The notes beneath the pieces were generated by a model. The model had not been told where the DNA came from. It saw nothing but the letters and a program-made list of their open reading frames with translations, and made no database searches. From NCBI GenBank assembly GCA_013151835.1, contig JAADHK010000097.1, forward strand, positions 1-64,000: a stretch of 64,000 nt of DNA, written 5' to 3'. Each line of letters opens with the position of its first letter. The first letter of the stretch is position 1. Source of the stretch: Deltaproteobacteria bacterium. Its GTDB lineage: Bacteria > Desulfobacterota > Desulfobacteria > Desulfobacterales > Desulfosalsimonadaceae. Of this stretch, positions 5,691 through 59,081 are shown piece after piece. The translations under genes and the position numbers were made by a program.

Positions 5691-5843
5691 GAGTAAAAAG
5701 TGCGTCGACCCGGTTACGATGGCTAAGTAGAAAGTTCCATATACAAGGCGTAGCGGGTCGCAAAAGCGGAGGCATACATATAGTATTTCGAGCATTTTGC
5801 GACCCGCTACAACGCAGTAGATGGGACTTTTTACGACGCCATT
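5691..5843 (-). repeat. MITE-like repeat, copy B
   Basis: This is a complete copy of the repeat of about 155 bp, in inverse orientation to copies A and C. The right end keeps the TIR GACTTTTTACGAC; the left end is slightly altered (GAGTAAAAAGTG). The 26-nt core is at 5770-5795. It ends about 13 bases before the Shine-Dalgarno of the oxidoreductase gene, so it forms most of that gene's upstream region. It has no coding capacity. Confidence 0.88.
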
Positions 5844-51556: not shown

Positions 51557-51568
51557 ATTTAATTAATG

Positions 51569-51727
51569 ATGGCGTCGTAAAAAGTCCCATCTACTGCGTT
51601 GTAGCGGGTCGCGAAATACTCGGAATACTATATGTATGCCTCCGCTTTCGCGACACACTACGCCTTGTATATGGAACTTTCTACTTAGCCATCGTAACCG
51701 GGGTGCCTGACTTTTTACGAGATCATC
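51569..51727 (+). repeat. MITE-like repeat, copy C (complete)
   Basis: The element of about 155 bp has inverted ends TCGTAAAAAGTC and GACTTTTTACGA and an internal stem GGGTCGCGAAA/TTTCGCGACAC around the core at 51616-51641. It has no coding capacity. It ends about 13 bases before the Shine-Dalgarno of efp. Confidence 0.9.
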
Positions 51728-51753
51728 AATTAATAACAGGAGAATAGAATCAT

Positions 51754-52317
51754 ATGTATGAATCAGGAGATTTGAGAAAAGGCTTGAAGATCGAGATAGA
51801 CGGTGACCCCTATGTGATCGTCGGGTTCCAGTTTGTAAAGCCGGGTAAGGGCCAGGCCCTTTATAAATGTAAACTGAAAAATATGATTTCCGGAGTTCAG
51901 TTCGACCGGACATACCGGTCGGGCGAGAAATTTAATCCCGCAGCCCTTGAGGAACAGGACATGGAATATCTCTATACGGACGGCGACCACTATCATTTCA
52001 TGAACAACTCCACCTATGACCAGGAGTCGATGACCGCCGAGCAGATCGGAGATGACATTAAGTTTCTCAAGGAAAATACGACATGCTCTGTTTTACTCTT
52101 TGATGGCCGGCCCATTGCAGTGTCTTTGCCGAATTTCATGGAGCTTACAATCGTAAAGGCCGATCCCTGGGCGAAGGGAGACACTGCGTCCGGAAGCAGC
52201 AAACCGGCCACCCTGGAGACGGGCCTTGAGATACAGGTGCCCCCTTTCATCGAAGAAGGGGAGATGGTCCGTATCGATACGCGCACGGGCCAGTATGTGG
52301 AGCGGGTTAAGAAATAA
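51754..52317 (+). CDS. efp: Elongation factor P
   Basis: This 187-aa factor relieves ribosome stalling at polyproline. The KOW-like first domain has the modified-Lys loop KPGKGQALY; the two OB domains follow, ending with RIDTRTGQYVERV. AGGAGA precedes the ATG. The gene's promoter must lie in or before the repeat region upstream. Confidence 0.96.
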   Translation: MYESGDLRKGLKIEIDGDPYVIVGFQFVKPGKGQALYKCKLKNMISGVQFDRTYRSGEKFNPAALEEQDMEYLYTDGDHYHFMNNSTYDQESMTAEQIGDDIKFLKENTTCSVLLFDGRPIAVSLPNFMELTIVKADPWAKGDTASGSSKPATLETGLEIQVPPFIEEGEMVRIDTRTGQYVERVKK

Positions 52318-52332
52318 TCCCACTTTTTTTGC

Positions 52333-52360
52333 TTGACTTTTCGGGAATTGTCCTGATAGT
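52333..52360 (+). promoter_or_regulatory. Candidate sigma-70 promoter of the fatty-acid oxidation operon
   Basis: TTGACT at 52333-52338 and GATAGT at 52355-52360 are separated by 16 bases. The first operator begins at the last base of the -10 box, the position expected for repression. Confidence 0.45.
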
Positions 52361-52377
52361 GAATGAATCTTCATTCA
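52360..52377. promoter_or_regulatory. FadR-type operator 1
   Basis: TGAATGA-ATCT-TCATTCA is a perfect palindrome that fits the consensus of the Bacillus subtilis TetR-family regulator FadR. It lies 127 bases before the TetR gene and overlaps the candidate promoter. Confidence 0.8.
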
Positions 52378-52378
52378 T

Positions 52379-52396
52379 TGAATGAAGCCTCATTCA
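52379..52396. promoter_or_regulatory. FadR-type operator 2
   Basis: TGAATGA-AGCC-TCATTCA is a second perfect palindrome, one base behind the first and centred 19 bases from it. The spacing would allow two dimers to bind side by side. Confidence 0.8.
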
Positions 52397-52503
52397 CATT
52401 GTGGTAGTTTATCGGGAATTTTTATGGTTAAGCAGGAACCATCCCCGAGCATGAACAACAGGCCGATTTTTTAAACCTGCTCAGGAGGTATTTTCACGAT
52501 AAC

Positions 52504-53115
52504 GTGATGAAACCGATGAAAACAGATCAGCAGAATGCCAAGTACCATCGCATCCTCGAGGCGGCCATAAAGGTCTTTGCCGAACAGGGCTTTCATAATT
52601 CCACCATATCCCAGGTGGCAAGGGAGGCCGGGGTCGCGGATGGCACCATTTATCTTTATTTTAAAAACAAAACCGACATCCTTTCACATTTTTTTACATA
52701 CAAATCCCGTCTGGTCTTTGACCGTTTTCGCGAAGTCGTGGACCAGGCAGGAAGCGCCGAAGACAAGCTCCGCAGCCTTGTTTATAGGCATTTGACGGAG
52801 TTTCAGAGGGATCGGAACATGGCCGTTGTCTTCCAGTGCGAGGCGCTGATGTCCCGCTATGTTAACGAAGAATACATCCGTGAAATCACAAAAAACTATT
52901 TTTCAATATTAGATGAAATCATACGCCAGGGACAGGCAGAAGGGAGCGTCAGGAAAGAACTGCCAAGGGGTCTTGTGAAACGATTTATCCTCGGAGCTGT
53001 AAACGAGGTGATCAATACGTGGGTGGTGACAGGCGGAAAGACCGATATTTCGAAGATGGTCGATCCTTTGACCGAGCTTTTTTTCGAGGGTCTCGGGGCA
53101 CCACATGCAACTTGA
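52504..53115 (+). CDS. TetR-family regulator, probably of fatty-acid oxidation
   Basis: This 203-aa protein has an N-terminal TetR HTH (about 15-60, TISQVAREAGVADGTIYLYF) and a helical ligand domain of the FadR/TetR_C type. It probably binds the two operators upstream of its own gene and responds to acyl-CoA; both points are inferred from the operator sequence and the acyl-CoA dehydrogenase gene next door. The start is GTG followed by ATG; AGGAGG stands somewhat far upstream (16 bases). Confidence 0.88.
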   Translation: MMKPMKTDQQNAKYHRILEAAIKVFAEQGFHNSTISQVAREAGVADGTIYLYFKNKTDILSHFFTYKSRLVFDRFREVVDQAGSAEDKLRSLVYRHLTEFQRDRNMAVVFQCEALMSRYVNEEYIREITKNYFSILDEIIRQGQAEGSVRKELPRGLVKRFILGAVNEVINTWVVTGGKTDISKMVDPLTELFFEGLGAPHAT

Positions 53116-53288: not shown

Positions 53289-55100
53289 ATGGCGCAGCAG
53301 ATCGCGGACCGCAGGGATGTCGATTTCGTCCTGCATGAACAATTGAACGTGGCCGAACTCAGCAAACATGAAAAGTATGCGGAGTTTAACAAAAAGACCG
53401 TGGACCTGATCGTATCCGAGGCCCGGAACCTGGCCGTAAAGGAGATACTTCCGACCCGCAAGGAGGGAGATGATGAAGGGGTTAAATTCGAAAACGGCGA
53501 GGTGATCGTCCCGGAATGTTTTCGCAAGCCCTTTGAACTGCTTAGGGAGGGCGAATGGACGGCCATGCCCGAAGACCCGGAATGGGGCGGCCAGGGCATG
53601 CCGCGTGCCGTGACAATGGCGGCGGCCGAATATTTCAACGGCGCCAATTACGCATTCATGATGTATTCCGGTCTGACCCACGGAGCCGGAAAACTCGTCG
53701 AGGCATTCGGCACGGATGAGCAAAAAAAGCTCTATCTTAAAAAACTCTTTACCAGTGAATGGGGCGGGACCATGCTTTTGACAGAGCCCGAGGCAGGTTC
53801 CGACGTGGGCGCCCTGACCACAAAGGCCGTGAAAAACGACGACGGCACTTATTCCATCACCGGCCAGAAGATTTTTATTTCAAGCGGTGATCACGACCTG
53901 GTTGAAAACATTCTGCATCCCGTCCTGGCCCGTATCGAGGGTGCGCCTGCCGGAACCAAGGGAATCTCTTTGTTCGCGGTTCCCAAGTATCGCGTGAATC
54001 CGGATGGAAGCATTGGCGAATTTAATGATGTCAAGTGCGTCGGTATCGAGGAAAAAATGGGCATCCACGGCAACGCCACCTGCACCATGTCCCTGGGTGA
54101 AAAAGGGGAGTGCCTCGGAACCCTGCTCGGCGACGAGAACAAGGGGATGCGGGCCATGTTCCTCATGATGAACGAAGCCCGCCTCCTGGTCGGCATGCAG
54201 GGATACTCCTGCGCCACGGCTTCCTACATAAACTCGGTCAACTATGCCAAGGAGCGCCTTCAGGGCAGAAATCTTCTCAAGATGCTGGACAAGGATGCGC
54301 CTGCCGTTCCGATTATACAGCACCCGGATGTCCGCCGCATGCTTTTGACCATGAAGGTGTATGTCGAGGGCATCAGGAGCCTTCTTTACTACGTGGGCTG
54401 GCTGGAAGACAAGGCCGACACCGTCGATGACGAGGCTGAAAAGGACAAATGTCATGGGCTCATTGATATTCTGATTCCTATTGCCAAGGGCTATGTTACT
54501 GATCGTGCGTTTGATGTTTGCAGCCTTGGGATGCAGGTGTACGGGGGATACGGGTACATCAAGGAATACCCGCAGGAACAGCTCCTGCGCGATTGCCGGA
54601 TCACCATGATTTACGAGGGGGCCAACGGTATCCAGTCCATGGATCTCCTGGGCCGTAAGCTCGGCATGAAAAAGGGTAAACTCGTGATGGATCTCATGGG
54701 AGAGATAATGGTGGCCATCTCCGCAGGAAAGGTTGATGAAAAAACAAAGGCCTTTGCGGAAAAGGTGGAGCAGGCATTGAATAAACTGGGCGAGGTCGCC
54801 ATGCATCTCGGCAAGACCGCCATGTCCGAAAAAATACTCGATGCATTTGCATTTTCCTACCCCTTCATGGAAGTCTGCGGAGACGTTGTCATGGCCTGGA
54901 TGTTGCTTTGGAGGGCAAATGTAGCCGCCGGGGCAATCGAAAAAGCCAAGAAAAAGGATGTTGCCTTTTATGACGGCCAGCTCAAAAGCGCCCAGTTCTT
55001 CTGCAACACTATCCTGCCCACCACCCTGGGCAAGATGAACGCGATCCTGGCGACCGACAGCGCGATCATGGATATTGACGAGGCATCTTTTAACGGATAA
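53289..55100 (+). CDS. Acyl-CoA dehydrogenase (long form, about 600 aa)
   Basis: This 603-aa flavoenzyme makes the first oxidation in beta-oxidation and passes electrons to ETF. Typical are PEWGGQGMP, TEPEAGSDVGAL, GQKIFISSGDHD, and CSLGMQVYGGYGYIKEYPQEQLLRD. The catalytic Glu is probably in IYEGANGIQSMDLLGRK. The C-terminal extension is that of the long acyl-CoA dehydrogenase group. AAAGGAGAG precedes the ATG. It lies between its likely regulator and its electron acceptors. Confidence 0.95.
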   Translation: MAQQIADRRDVDFVLHEQLNVAELSKHEKYAEFNKKTVDLIVSEARNLAVKEILPTRKEGDDEGVKFENGEVIVPECFRKPFELLREGEWTAMPEDPEWGGQGMPRAVTMAAAEYFNGANYAFMMYSGLTHGAGKLVEAFGTDEQKKLYLKKLFTSEWGGTMLLTEPEAGSDVGALTTKAVKNDDGTYSITGQKIFISSGDHDLVENILHPVLARIEGAPAGTKGISLFAVPKYRVNPDGSIGEFNDVKCVGIEEKMGIHGNATCTMSLGEKGECLGTLLGDENKGMRAMFLMMNEARLLVGMQGYSCATASYINSVNYAKERLQGRNLLKMLDKDAPAVPIIQHPDVRRMLLTMKVYVEGIRSLLYYVGWLEDKADTVDDEAEKDKCHGLIDILIPIAKGYVTDRAFDVCSLGMQVYGGYGYIKEYPQEQLLRDCRITMIYEGANGIQSMDLLGRKLGMKKGKLVMDLMGEIMVAISAGKVDEKTKAFAEKVEQALNKLGEVAMHLGKTAMSEKILDAFAFSYPFMEVCGDVVMAWMLLWRANVAAGAIEKAKKKDVAFYDGQLKSAQFFCNTILPTTLGKMNAILATDSAIMDIDEASFNG

Positions 55101-55183
55101 AAAAGCGATGACCGCGAGGCGGGGAACCGGTCCGCATGGGCCGCTTCCCCGTAATAACGGTCCGCCTGAATATGAGGTCGATT

Positions 55184-57253
55184 ATGGACTCTTTACTGCT
55201 TTCACCCGCGACGTACAAACTTTTCGGTTTTTTCCCGATGGTAATCTTTTCCGTGTTGATTCCGGTGGCCGCGATTGCGCTGTTTACATTTATCCTGGCA
55301 AAAAGGCTCGCGCCCATTGTCCGAGCAAAACCGGATTTCAGGTTTGACCGCCCCGTGGAGCGGGTTATAAACGTTATTAAGATATGGCTGGGCCAGTATC
55401 GTCACCCGAGATACATGGTTGCCGGCGTTATTCACATGACAATTTTTTTCGGTTTTTTAATCCTTTCAATCCGTTCCACCGAGCTGGTTTTCAAGGGAAT
55501 CAAGGAAGGTTTTATCTTTCCGGGCCTTGGCGGGATTCTTGGGCATATTTATTACACGCTCAAGGATTATGCATCAACCGCCGTTTTTATCGCGGCCGTG
55601 GTGGCATTTATACGTCGCGCCTGGTTCCGGCCGTCAAGGTATAGCTATCCGGATTCCTACGGCGAGGATCATACCTGGGAGGCTCTGCTGGTCCTGGGTT
55701 TCATCATGACCCTGATGGTCTCGGAAAGTCTTTATGAGGCCGTGGCCGTGGCCCAGCAGGTGCATGCCGGCATAAGTCCGGATTTTATTTCACCGCTCAC
55801 CCTTGGATGGTTTTTTGAAAAAATCTCCGTCCATGCCGGACGATCCACTTTACAATCACTTCATATAATATCGTATTACGTGCATGACCTCACCTTTTTC
55901 ACTTTTCTCTGCTTTCTGCCCCTTGGCAAGCATTTTCATGTCATCACCTCTCTTTTCAACGTTTATTTCATGCGTCTTGAAAGAGGAAATATCCGACCGG
56001 TGCGCTATGGAGTGAGCGACGAGGAACTGGATGACCTGGAATCTTTCGGGGTCAAGAAATACGATGATTTTACCTGGAAGGATATTCTCGATTTTTATAC
56101 CTGCGCGGATTGCGGGCGTTGCTCGGACCAGTGCCCGGCCAATTTCGTGGGCCGGCCCCTTTCGCCACGGTTCATTAGTTTAAAAGGCAGAGATTTCGCC
56201 TTTGAACACTATTCCCTCTTTTCTGATTTCACCAAAAGAGATGAGGAACTCATCGGAACGATTTACTCTGAAGATGAGATCTGGTCATGTACCACCTGCG
56301 GGGCCTGCGAGCAGGAGTGCCCCATAGGGATCGAGTATATCAATAAGATCGTTGATTTGCGGCGTGGAATGGTGGATGACGGAAATGTGCCCCAGACGCT
56401 TCAAAAACCGCTCCAGTCCCTTGGAAAGCGCGGCAATCCCTATGGGAAGCTTGAAAAGAAACGGGCCGACTGGACAAAGGAATTAGAGGATTTCGAGGTA
56501 AAGATCCTGGACAAGAAAGAGACTGCGGACACCCTGTATTTTGTGGATTCCGTAACCTCCTATGACGAGCGGATGCAGTCAATCGCAAAGGCCACGGCGA
56601 CGATTTTAAACCGCGCCGGGGTCGATTTCGGTATTCTGGGTAAAAAGGAAAAGGATAGCGCAAACGAGGTCCGGAGATTTGGGGAGGAGATGCTTTTCCA
56701 GGATCTAAGGGACCGGAATACGGATGCGATTCTCGATTCGGGTGTGAGTCGGATTGTAACCGCCGACCCCCATGCTCTTAATGCCCTGAAGCATGAATAT
56801 AAAGACCTGCCGCCGGTTGAGCATATCAGCCAGTTCATGGCGCGCAGCATCGCCGAGGGCAGGATCAGGTTGAAGGGGATTTGCCCCGAGGAGCCGGGCA
56901 AGGTATATACCTATCACGATCCCTGCTATCTGGGCCGTCACAATTCGGTTTACGATGATCCTAGAGAGGTTATCGACGCGATTGCCGGCATTCGCCGGGT
57001 TGAGATGGTAAAGAGCCGCGACCGGTCGTTCTGCTGTTCAGGCGGCGGTTTGATGCTTTTTTATGAACCCGAGGAAGACGAACGTATGGGTGTTGTTCGT
57101 GTCAGGATGGCAAAGGAGGCCGGTGCAAATGTCATTGTTACGGCCTGCCCGTTCTGTTTGACAAACATCGAGGACGCCATAAAGGTCGCCGGTCTCGAAG
57201 GCGAGATGGAAGCGATTGATCTTTGCGAACTCGTAGAGCAGCATTTGCAGTAA
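55184..57253 (+). CDS. Membrane FeS oxidoreductase, ETF:(mena)quinone reductase type
   Basis: This protein of about 689 aa joins a NarI-like cytochrome b domain with five to six membrane segments (about 1-275), two [4Fe-4S] motifs (CADCGRCSDQCP and CTTCGACEQECP) and a CCG domain (HDPCYLGRHN, FCCSGGG, TACPFCLTN). Such fusions next to etfBA pass electrons from acyl-CoA dehydrogenase via ETF to the quinone pool (EMR type). I choose the ATG at 55184 (GAGG seven bases upstream); a start at 55136 is possible. Confidence 0.9.
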   Translation: MDSLLLSPATYKLFGFFPMVIFSVLIPVAAIALFTFILAKRLAPIVRAKPDFRFDRPVERVINVIKIWLGQYRHPRYMVAGVIHMTIFFGFLILSIRSTELVFKGIKEGFIFPGLGGILGHIYYTLKDYASTAVFIAAVVAFIRRAWFRPSRYSYPDSYGEDHTWEALLVLGFIMTLMVSESLYEAVAVAQQVHAGISPDFISPLTLGWFFEKISVHAGRSTLQSLHIISYYVHDLTFFTFLCFLPLGKHFHVITSLFNVYFMRLERGNIRPVRYGVSDEELDDLESFGVKKYDDFTWKDILDFYTCADCGRCSDQCPANFVGRPLSPRFISLKGRDFAFEHYSLFSDFTKRDEELIGTIYSEDEIWSCTTCGACEQECPIGIEYINKIVDLRRGMVDDGNVPQTLQKPLQSLGKRGNPYGKLEKKRADWTKELEDFEVKILDKKETADTLYFVDSVTSYDERMQSIAKATATILNRAGVDFGILGKKEKDSANEVRRFGEEMLFQDLRDRNTDAILDSGVSRIVTADPHALNALKHEYKDLPPVEHISQFMARSIAEGRIRLKGICPEEPGKVYTYHDPCYLGRHNSVYDDPREVIDAIAGIRRVEMVKSRDRSFCCSGGGLMLFYEPEEDERMGVVRVRMAKEAGANVIVTACPFCLTNIEDAIKVAGLEGEMEAIDLCELVEQHLQ

Positions 57254-57327: not shown

Positions 57328-58116
57328 ATGGAAATCTTGGTATGTGTTAAACGGGTTCCCGATACTGCGGAAAACGAGATCGAGATCAACTCCGATGGAA
57401 ACGACATCGAACGTGACGATCTGGTTTATTCCGTAAATGAGTGGGACAACTACGCGGTCGAGGAAGCGATCCAAATCGTGGACAAGGTCGGCGGTTCCGT
57501 TACGGTTGTGACGGTGGGCGATGACGAGTCCGAGGAAGTCCTGCGCCGGGAAATGGCCATGGGCGCTGAAAAGGGGATTCTCCTTTCAGACGACGCCTTC
57601 GAGGGATCGGATGGAAAAGGGATAGCCACGGCCTTAAAGGCGGCGGTGGAAAAAGGGAGTTATGACCTTATTTTCACGGGGGCGCAGGCCGATGACGGCG
57701 CGGCCCAGGTCGGGGGCATGCTTGCGGCAATGCTCGATTATCCCTATGCCTCTCTCGTAAACTTGATAGAGCCCGGTGACGGTAAATTGAAAGTCGGCCG
57801 GGAAATCGAAGGCGGCAATCAGGAGATTAATGAAATCGAGCTTCCCTGCGTTCTTTCGATTCAGACCGGTATTAATGAGCCACGGTACGTGGGTATCCGC
57901 GGTATTCGTAAGGTCGCTTCCGTTGAAATCCCGACCCTGGGCGCCTCCGATCTTGGCCTTGACGCCGGGTCTGTTGGAGAGGGCGCGGCAAAGGTCAGGA
58001 GAGTCGATTACTTCATGCCCGAGATGGGCGAGGGCGCCGAAATGCTCGAAGGGAGCACGGAGGAGATCATCGACAAGCTCATTGAACTCTTAAAAGCCAA
58101 AGGAGGGCTGAAATAA
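57328..58116 (+). CDS. etfB: Electron transfer flavoprotein beta subunit
   Basis: This 262-aa subunit has the start MEILVCVKRVPDTAENEI, the NEWDNYAVEEAI stretch and FTGAQADDGAAQVGGMLA, typical of EtfB. It pairs with EtfA to accept electrons from acyl-CoA dehydrogenase. GGGAGGAG precedes the ATG. Its stop overlaps the etfA start by one base (TAATG). Confidence 0.96.
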   Translation: MEILVCVKRVPDTAENEIEINSDGNDIERDDLVYSVNEWDNYAVEEAIQIVDKVGGSVTVVTVGDDESEEVLRREMAMGAEKGILLSDDAFEGSDGKGIATALKAAVEKGSYDLIFTGAQADDGAAQVGGMLAAMLDYPYASLVNLIEPGDGKLKVGREIEGGNQEINEIELPCVLSIQTGINEPRYVGIRGIRKVASVEIPTLGASDLGLDAGSVGEGAAKVRRVDYFMPEMGEGAEMLEGSTEEIIDKLIELLKAKGGLK

Positions 58117-59081
58117 TGGCCGAGGTTTTCGCATATATAAAACACGAAGGTGGTGTTGCGGATGATTCTGCTCTGGAACTCCTTTCCGCAGCAAAAAAGA
58201 TTGCGCCCGGAGCAAATGTTACCGCAGTTGTAACCGGAAACGGCGCGGATATTGACACGGTCTGCAATGCCATGGCGTCTGCTTACAGCGCCGTCTGGAA
58301 AATCGATAATGAAGCGCTGGCCTACCCGAATGCGGAAGTGGTCAGAAAAGCCCTGGTAAATACCCTGGCCGCAGACAGTATAGTCCTTCTGCCCCATGAT
58401 ACTTTCGGCATGGACCTGGGCCCGGGCCTTTCCATAAAGATGAATTCCGCGTTTGTCGCGGATCTCGTGGACGTGGAAGATTCCGATGGGGCGGTTCTCA
58501 AGGTGATCCGCCAGGAATTTTCAGGCCAGGCATACACGCATGTTACCTGTGATATCTCGGGCGGCGCGGTCATAAACGTCCGTCCCGGTGTGTTTGCAGC
58601 CGAAGAGGCGGCGGCAACAGGTGCGGTAGTGGACAAGTCGGCCGATGCCGGAGATCTGTCCGCTAAACGGAAATATATCGAGATTGTCGAAGCGGAAGCA
58701 GGAGATGTCGATATCACCAAGGCCGAGGTCCTGGTATCCGTGGGTCGTGGAATAGAGGACGAGGACAATATTGAAATCGTACATGACCTTGCAAAAGCCA
58801 TGGGGGCCGAGGTTTCATGTTCACGGCCCATTGTCGACGCAAAGTGGCTTGAAAAGGCCCGGCAGGTCGGAACTTCCGGCAAGACCGTCAAGCCCAAGGT
58901 CTACATGGCCATGGGAATTTCCGGGTCCTTCCAGCACATGGGCGGCCTCAAGGGTAATCCTTTTATCGTTGCCGTCAACAAGAACCCCAAGGCCCCGATC
59001 TTCCAGGTGGCCGATGTGGGTGTCGAGGCCGACATCCTCGAGTTTATTCCCGAACTCACGGAAAAGATCGAGGAACTGTAA
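58116..59081 (+). CDS. etfA: Electron transfer flavoprotein alpha subunit
   Basis: This 321-aa subunit holds the C-terminal FAD-binding domain with GTSGKTVKPKVYMAMGISGS and the QHMGGLKGNPFIVAVNKN loop. N-terminal domain features are typical (VFAYIKHEGG, LLPHDTFGMDLGPGLS). It is the last gene of the fatty-acid oxidation operon and is followed by a strong terminator. Confidence 0.96.
   Translation: MAEVFAYIKHEGGVADDSALELLSAAKKIAPGANVTAVVTGNGADIDTVCNAMASAYSAVWKIDNEALAYPNAEVVRKALVNTLAADSIVLLPHDTFGMDLGPGLSIKMNSAFVADLVDVEDSDGAVLKVIRQEFSGQAYTHVTCDISGGAVINVRPGVFAAEEAAATGAVVDKSADAGDLSAKRKYIEIVEAEAGDVDITKAEVLVSVGRGIEDEDNIEIVHDLAKAMGAEVSCSRPIVDAKWLEKARQVGTSGKTVKPKVYMAMGISGSFQHMGGLKGNPFIVAVNKNPKAPIFQVADVGVEADILEFIPELTEKIEEL

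Follow-up and report, generated by a model that had tools for sequence, protein, structure and literature searches.

Adjacent putative FadR operators with a fixed spacing at the promoter of a fadR-acd-fadF-etfBA operon in a deltaproteobacterium

The closest described counterpart of the locus analysed here is the FadR system of Bacillus, in which the regulator is inhibited by C14-C20 acyl-CoA and which includes the operons lcfA-fadR-fadB-etfB-etfA and fadF-acdA (PMC4525379). For FadR of Sulfolobus acidocaldarius it has been reported that two dimers can bind the protein's own operator cooperatively (PMC6449355), and within the proteobacteria the GntR-type FadR is reported absent outside the gammaproteobacteria and FadP unique to the betaproteobacteria (PMC5343134). 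In Desulfococcus multivorans, proteomics identified FadR2, AcdA9, FadA, FadB and FadD5 as specific to myristate (C14) and FadF as constitutive, and the authors suggested FadR2 as the regulator; the accessible part of that report names no operator for FadR2 (PMC5109826). Our own literature search, which covered few subscription journals and excluded RegPrecise, found no paper on the operator or regulon considered below in these bacteria.

The window, the whole stretch of DNA analysed, comprises 64,000 nucleotides of a contig from a member of the Desulfosalsimonadaceae, a relative of sulfate reducers. It contains two perfect TGAATGA-N4-TCATTCA palindromes, at 52360-52377 and 52379-52396, with a gap of 1 base and a period of 19. 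This matches exactly, in coordinates and in sequence, the two side-by-side promoter sites of the preliminary description, which had been made from the sequence alone. The motif is identical to the operator consensus of Bacillus FadR. The promoter region is laid out as follows.

52333..52338, + strand: -35 box TTGACT of the fadR operon promoter; TTGACA stands at an equal distance from the first operator in nearly all orthologues of the order.
52355..52360, + strand: -10 box GATAGT; the aligned promoters read TTGACA-N16/17-GATAAT(GAATGA).
52360..52377, no strand assigned: candidate operator O1, TGAATGAATCTTCATTCA, in the ancestral position and overlapping the -10 box; other families have a single site in the same place.
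52379..52396, no strand assigned: candidate operator O2, TGAATGAAGCCTCATTCA, the second, family-specific site, 19 bp downstream of O1.

The -10 box and O1 share one base, the last of the former and the first of the latter, and O2 falls within the first transcribed bases; the gene upstream of the promoter is efp, which ends at 52317. The tandem sites are the sole perfect copies in the 3,325,361-bp genome, with 0 elsewhere, and under an order-1 Markov model the expected number of perfect sites is 0.0005 per window and 0.027 per genome, and that of an adjacent pair about 2e-10. Downstream of the promoter lie a ribosome-binding site and five genes.

52483..52489, + strand: Shine-Dalgarno sequence AGGAGGT, 14 nt before the GTG start of fadR.
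52504..53115, + strand: fadR, TetR-family regulator with a YsiA-like C-terminal domain, 203 aa (Pfam, NCBIfam, PDB and Foldseek).
53289..55100, + strand: acd, acyl-CoA dehydrogenase, 603 aa, kept beside fadR in the order.
55136..57253, + strand: fadF-type membrane Fe-S/CCG (4Fe-4S) oxidoreductase, electron transfer from ETF to quinone, 705 aa.
57328..58116, + strand: etfB, electron transfer flavoprotein beta.
58116..59081, + strand: etfA, electron transfer flavoprotein alpha.

The TetR/acyl-CoA dehydrogenase/ETF unit proposed earlier is thus confirmed as TetR, acd, a fadF-type oxidoreductase, EtfB and EtfA. As a separate observation, positions 51567-51731 hold a copy of a MITE-like dispersed repeat of about 165 bp with terminal inverted repeats (TGATGGCGTCGTAAAAAGTCCC ... 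ACTTTTTACGAGATCATCA), of which about 40 copies more than 90% alike occur in the genome, including further ones in the window at 5693-5842 (- strand) and 1-91.

The regulator carries both the TetR_N helix-turn-helix (PF00440, 1.5e-17) and the YsiA-like C-terminal domain TetR_C_4 (PF08359, 1.1e-25). With the NCBIfam FadR model it scores 185.5 bits (next model, 63 bits), narrowly missing the cut-off of 200, and by the equivalog rule it is a close relative and no certified member. Its nearest solved structures are 1vi0, 3whb, 5gp9 and 5gpa (E 1e-40; next family, 1e-15), and the top 13 Foldseek matches of its AlphaFold model (pLDDT 88) are all FadR of B. subtilis or B. halodurans, with 5gpc and 3whc, a complex with stearoyl-CoA, among them. 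Identity to Bacillus FadR is 37-38%, and the recognition segment V-A-D-G-T-I-Y-x-Y-F, invariant or nearly so in 45 homologues, is identical in the Bacillus protein. Identity, fold and recognition segment together bear out the assignment to the FadR type, and the shared segment makes "distant relative", as Bacillus FadR had first been called, an understatement. As to the ligand, it is improbable that this regulator senses a short, branched or aromatic acyl-CoA and not a long-chain fatty acyl-CoA: TetR regulators of similar size do sense such CoA esters, for instance AibR with isovaleryl-CoA, which appears among the lower-ranked Foldseek matches, but the closest structures bind long-chain acyl-CoA (C14-C20 in PMC4525379), and the D. 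multivorans orthologue FadR2 is myristate-specific in proteomics.

Among 79 relatives searched, 60 encode a FadR orthologue and 58 contain the exact motif, with the reversed control pattern found in 0. The motif lies upstream of fadR throughout most of the order. In its other families fadR has one site, which follows the -10 box of a TTGACA promoter immediately or overlaps it, and a perfect or near-perfect site precedes the gene even in homologues from elsewhere in the phylum with only about 35% identity. These comparisons support the view that the motif and a FadR-type regulator form a pair conserved phylum-wide. They also bear on the notion that a different TetR protein of this genome binds the sites and FadR is merely their neighbour. 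About 20 TetR proteins are encoded in it, of which this FadR is the only close FadR/YsiA relative (444.6 bits versus 65.7 for the next TetR); but the motif accompanies fadR across the phylum, down to the homologues of about 35% identity, and equals the Bacillus FadR box, and we regard a different binder as very improbable.

With high probability, the two palindromes serve as operators for the FadR-type repressor whose gene follows them, working in a switch of the following kind. When long-chain acyl-CoA is lacking, O1 would be occupied by one FadR dimer, which would cover the start site and the -10 box, and the neighbouring O2 by another; the fadR-acd-fadF-etfBA operon would thereby be tightly autorepressed. 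Once fatty acids are activated, acyl-CoA would bind FadR, the DNA-binding domains would part, and both dimers would leave; the resulting derepression would supply acyl-CoA dehydrogenase together with the ETF and FadF proteins that pass electrons to the quinone pool. At the level of sequence, the operators, their overlap with the promoter, the orthology of the regulator, the joint conservation of motif and regulator, the synteny and the fixed spacing are established. FadR would be expected to bind these operators and, by homology, to take acyl-CoA as its ligand; to judge from the anatomy of the site and the behaviour of Bacillus FadR, it would repress by covering the -10 box and start region, regulate its own gene, and leave the DNA when long-chain acyl-CoA is bound, and dimers on O1 and O2 might, as a hypothesis, bind cooperatively.

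The doubling itself belongs to the window's family. In each of 24 loci of the family the best pairing of O1 and O2 has a period of 19, while any of the four bases can fill the one-base spacer, the N4 cores vary, and O2 lies 54-143 nt from the coding sequence. A scan of 291 genomes of the order for perfect pairs with gaps of 0-15 bp found none outside this family, and always a 1-bp gap. The FadR tree gives the tandem state a single origin (branch support 100/99), followed by its loss in genus g9, where O2 is absent, and its weakening in g6, g8 and g10, although the bootstrap is not fully settled and the nested position of g9 is tentative. Sequence comparison thus indicates that the tandem pair is derived and family-specific and the single site ancestral. 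The period is fixed while the spacer, N4 cores and flanks vary, and we therefore argue for selection on the pair; the fixed 19-bp period suggests two adjacent dimers, though it could be partly inherited, indels within 37 bp being rare. A less favoured but still appreciable possibility is that only O1 works and that O2 is a duplicate persisting by descent, or one that mainly raises the local repressor concentration. Outside the family, promoters of the order as a rule carry one site, and the weakened or missing O2 of the four genera just named fits such dispensability; against it, most of the clade has a perfect O2 despite turnover of the N4 core, spacer base and flanks, and the exact 19-bp placement is kept in every one of the 24 loci. 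Two working operators remain our preferred reading of the pair.

The regulon is wide in relatives and narrow here. Twenty further exact sites were examined in relatives: nine stand before fadB (3-hydroxyacyl-CoA dehydrogenase/enoyl-CoA hydratase), seven before fadF followed by etfBA, and one before an acyl-CoA synthetase gene (fadD). Where an opposite-strand fadD lies between fadR-acd and fadF-etfBA, a second operator precedes fadF in 9/10 loci, and unbroken operons mostly lack it (Fisher p 3e-4, kinship of the loci ignored); the operator before fadF tracks the split of the operon, and there is therefore roughly one operator per transcription unit. In D. multivorans DSM 2059, motif sites precede fadR2, fadF and fadBA. 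A point against our best explanation is that FadF of this species is described as constitutive in the proteomic report, although a site precedes fadF. One motif before a RACo gene in a relative (G041, C877) has core letters unlike those of FadR sites and is probably unrelated. In genus g9, a FadR box lies between fadB and a divergent LolA-like gene at one locus (L110), and at another (L108) a box is placed where a LolA-like gene begins.

In the window genome, the scan for more strong sites near lipid genes, whose failure the preliminary description had named among its grounds for refutation, found none, and the genome's own fadB and fadD promoters, inspected for a FadR site, have none. The 15 sites with 1-2 mismatches lie nearly all inside reading frames of unrelated genes, and the sole intergenic candidate by a lipid-type gene, an enoyl-CoA hydratase gene (C89:7071, 12/14), is too weak as a site. 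The conserved fatty-acid regulon envisaged at first is therefore found in relatives, at fadB, fadF-etf and fadD, and apparently not in this genome, where only the own operon carries strong sites; judging from the genomes compared, the wide FadR regulon is a property of the relatives, and here it looks contracted to a single operon, with FadR a local regulator. At the own fadB promoter (L180, C8), a palindrome GATTAAA-T-TTTAATC follows the TTGACA box near the -10 region, at the place occupied by the FadR box in relatives from other families, and fadB may have been handed over to another regulator. Within the window's family the box at fadB is seen only in genus g9, whose fadR has a single operator. 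That a core beta-oxidation gene such as fadB is without a site is a further point against the best explanation, for it puts a coordinated regulon here in doubt. Two further sequences occur elsewhere in the genome: GGAATGAACGTTCATTCC, an operator look-alike with changed outer bases in front of a TetR gene by an RND efflux-type operon (C33:14532), and a palindrome TGACTGA-N4-TCAGTCA between divergent MMPL/RND-type transporter genes (C41:7838).

A further, unexpected trait is that most fadR genes of the order have no usual start codon where one would be expected. Among 58 order orthologues with a Shine-Dalgarno match (survey loci L065, which is D. multivorans, L021-L069, L152-L158 and L221-L229), 44 have an in-frame ATC, ATT or ATA 3-6 nt after it, codons that make up 8.5% of those inside fadR. 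In 38 of the 44 no ATG, GTG or TTG lies between this codon and the HTH, and in 17 of 64 fadR genes, that of D. multivorans included, none occurs anywhere in the open frame. The neighbouring acd and etfB genes start with ATG in 68/68 and 30/30 cases, distant fadR homologues mostly have normal starts, and the window fadR has GTG at the homologous position, with the Shine-Dalgarno sequence 14 nt away. From these patterns, fadR in most of the order appears to initiate at ATC, ATT or ATA, and it is possible that the weak start keeps the repressor scarce relative to the enzymes encoded on the same mRNA. A precedent is Streptomyces sigR, whose GTC start is repressed by IF3 (PMC5472188). Taken jointly, it is slightly more probable than not that the family's rigid 19-bp doubled operator places two dimers for a steep switch, other targets having been lost, and that the order's AUC/AUU/AUA start limits the repressor, perhaps with IF3 as the controlling factor, as it is for infC and sigR. 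For FadR we found no description, in the literature searched, of such two-level control by a doubled operator and a start other than AUG, GUG or UUG; if true, the conserved AUC/AUU/AUA start would offer a rare example from nature of repressor dosage being set by the choice of start codon.

Much fatty acid in anoxic sediment is oxidised by sulfate reducers, yet in the literature searched no operator turned up for the long-chain fatty-acid genes of these bacteria. A Bacillus-like regulator-operator pair kept across two distant phyla would offer a ready-made, testable regulon, and a doubled operator with one fixed spacing a natural series on side-by-side binding of TetR dimers.

Set beside known systems, E. 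coli FadR (GntR), PsrA and FadP also regulate fatty-acid degradation in proteobacteria but differ from the window FadR in family or subfamily and in operator. S. acidocaldarius FadR is, like the predicted function here, a TetR-type, acyl-CoA-responsive repressor of beta-oxidation genes (PMC6449355), with an overlapping, 16-bp semi-palindromic site and a protein distant in sequence. The D. multivorans FadR2 locus shares with the window an orthologous regulator (about 59% identity) and the gene set; unlike the window, it has a single fadR2 operator, an inserted fadD, a second operator before fadF and a third before fadBA. FadR (YsiA) of B. subtilis and B. halodurans resembles the window protein in fold, recognition segment and operator, and in both settings fadR is linked to etfBA and acd/fadF-type genes. 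Unlike in Bacillus, the host here is anaerobic and didermic, fadR heads an acd-fadF-etfBA operon, the operator is doubled with a 19-bp period, and the regulon is apparently that one operon.
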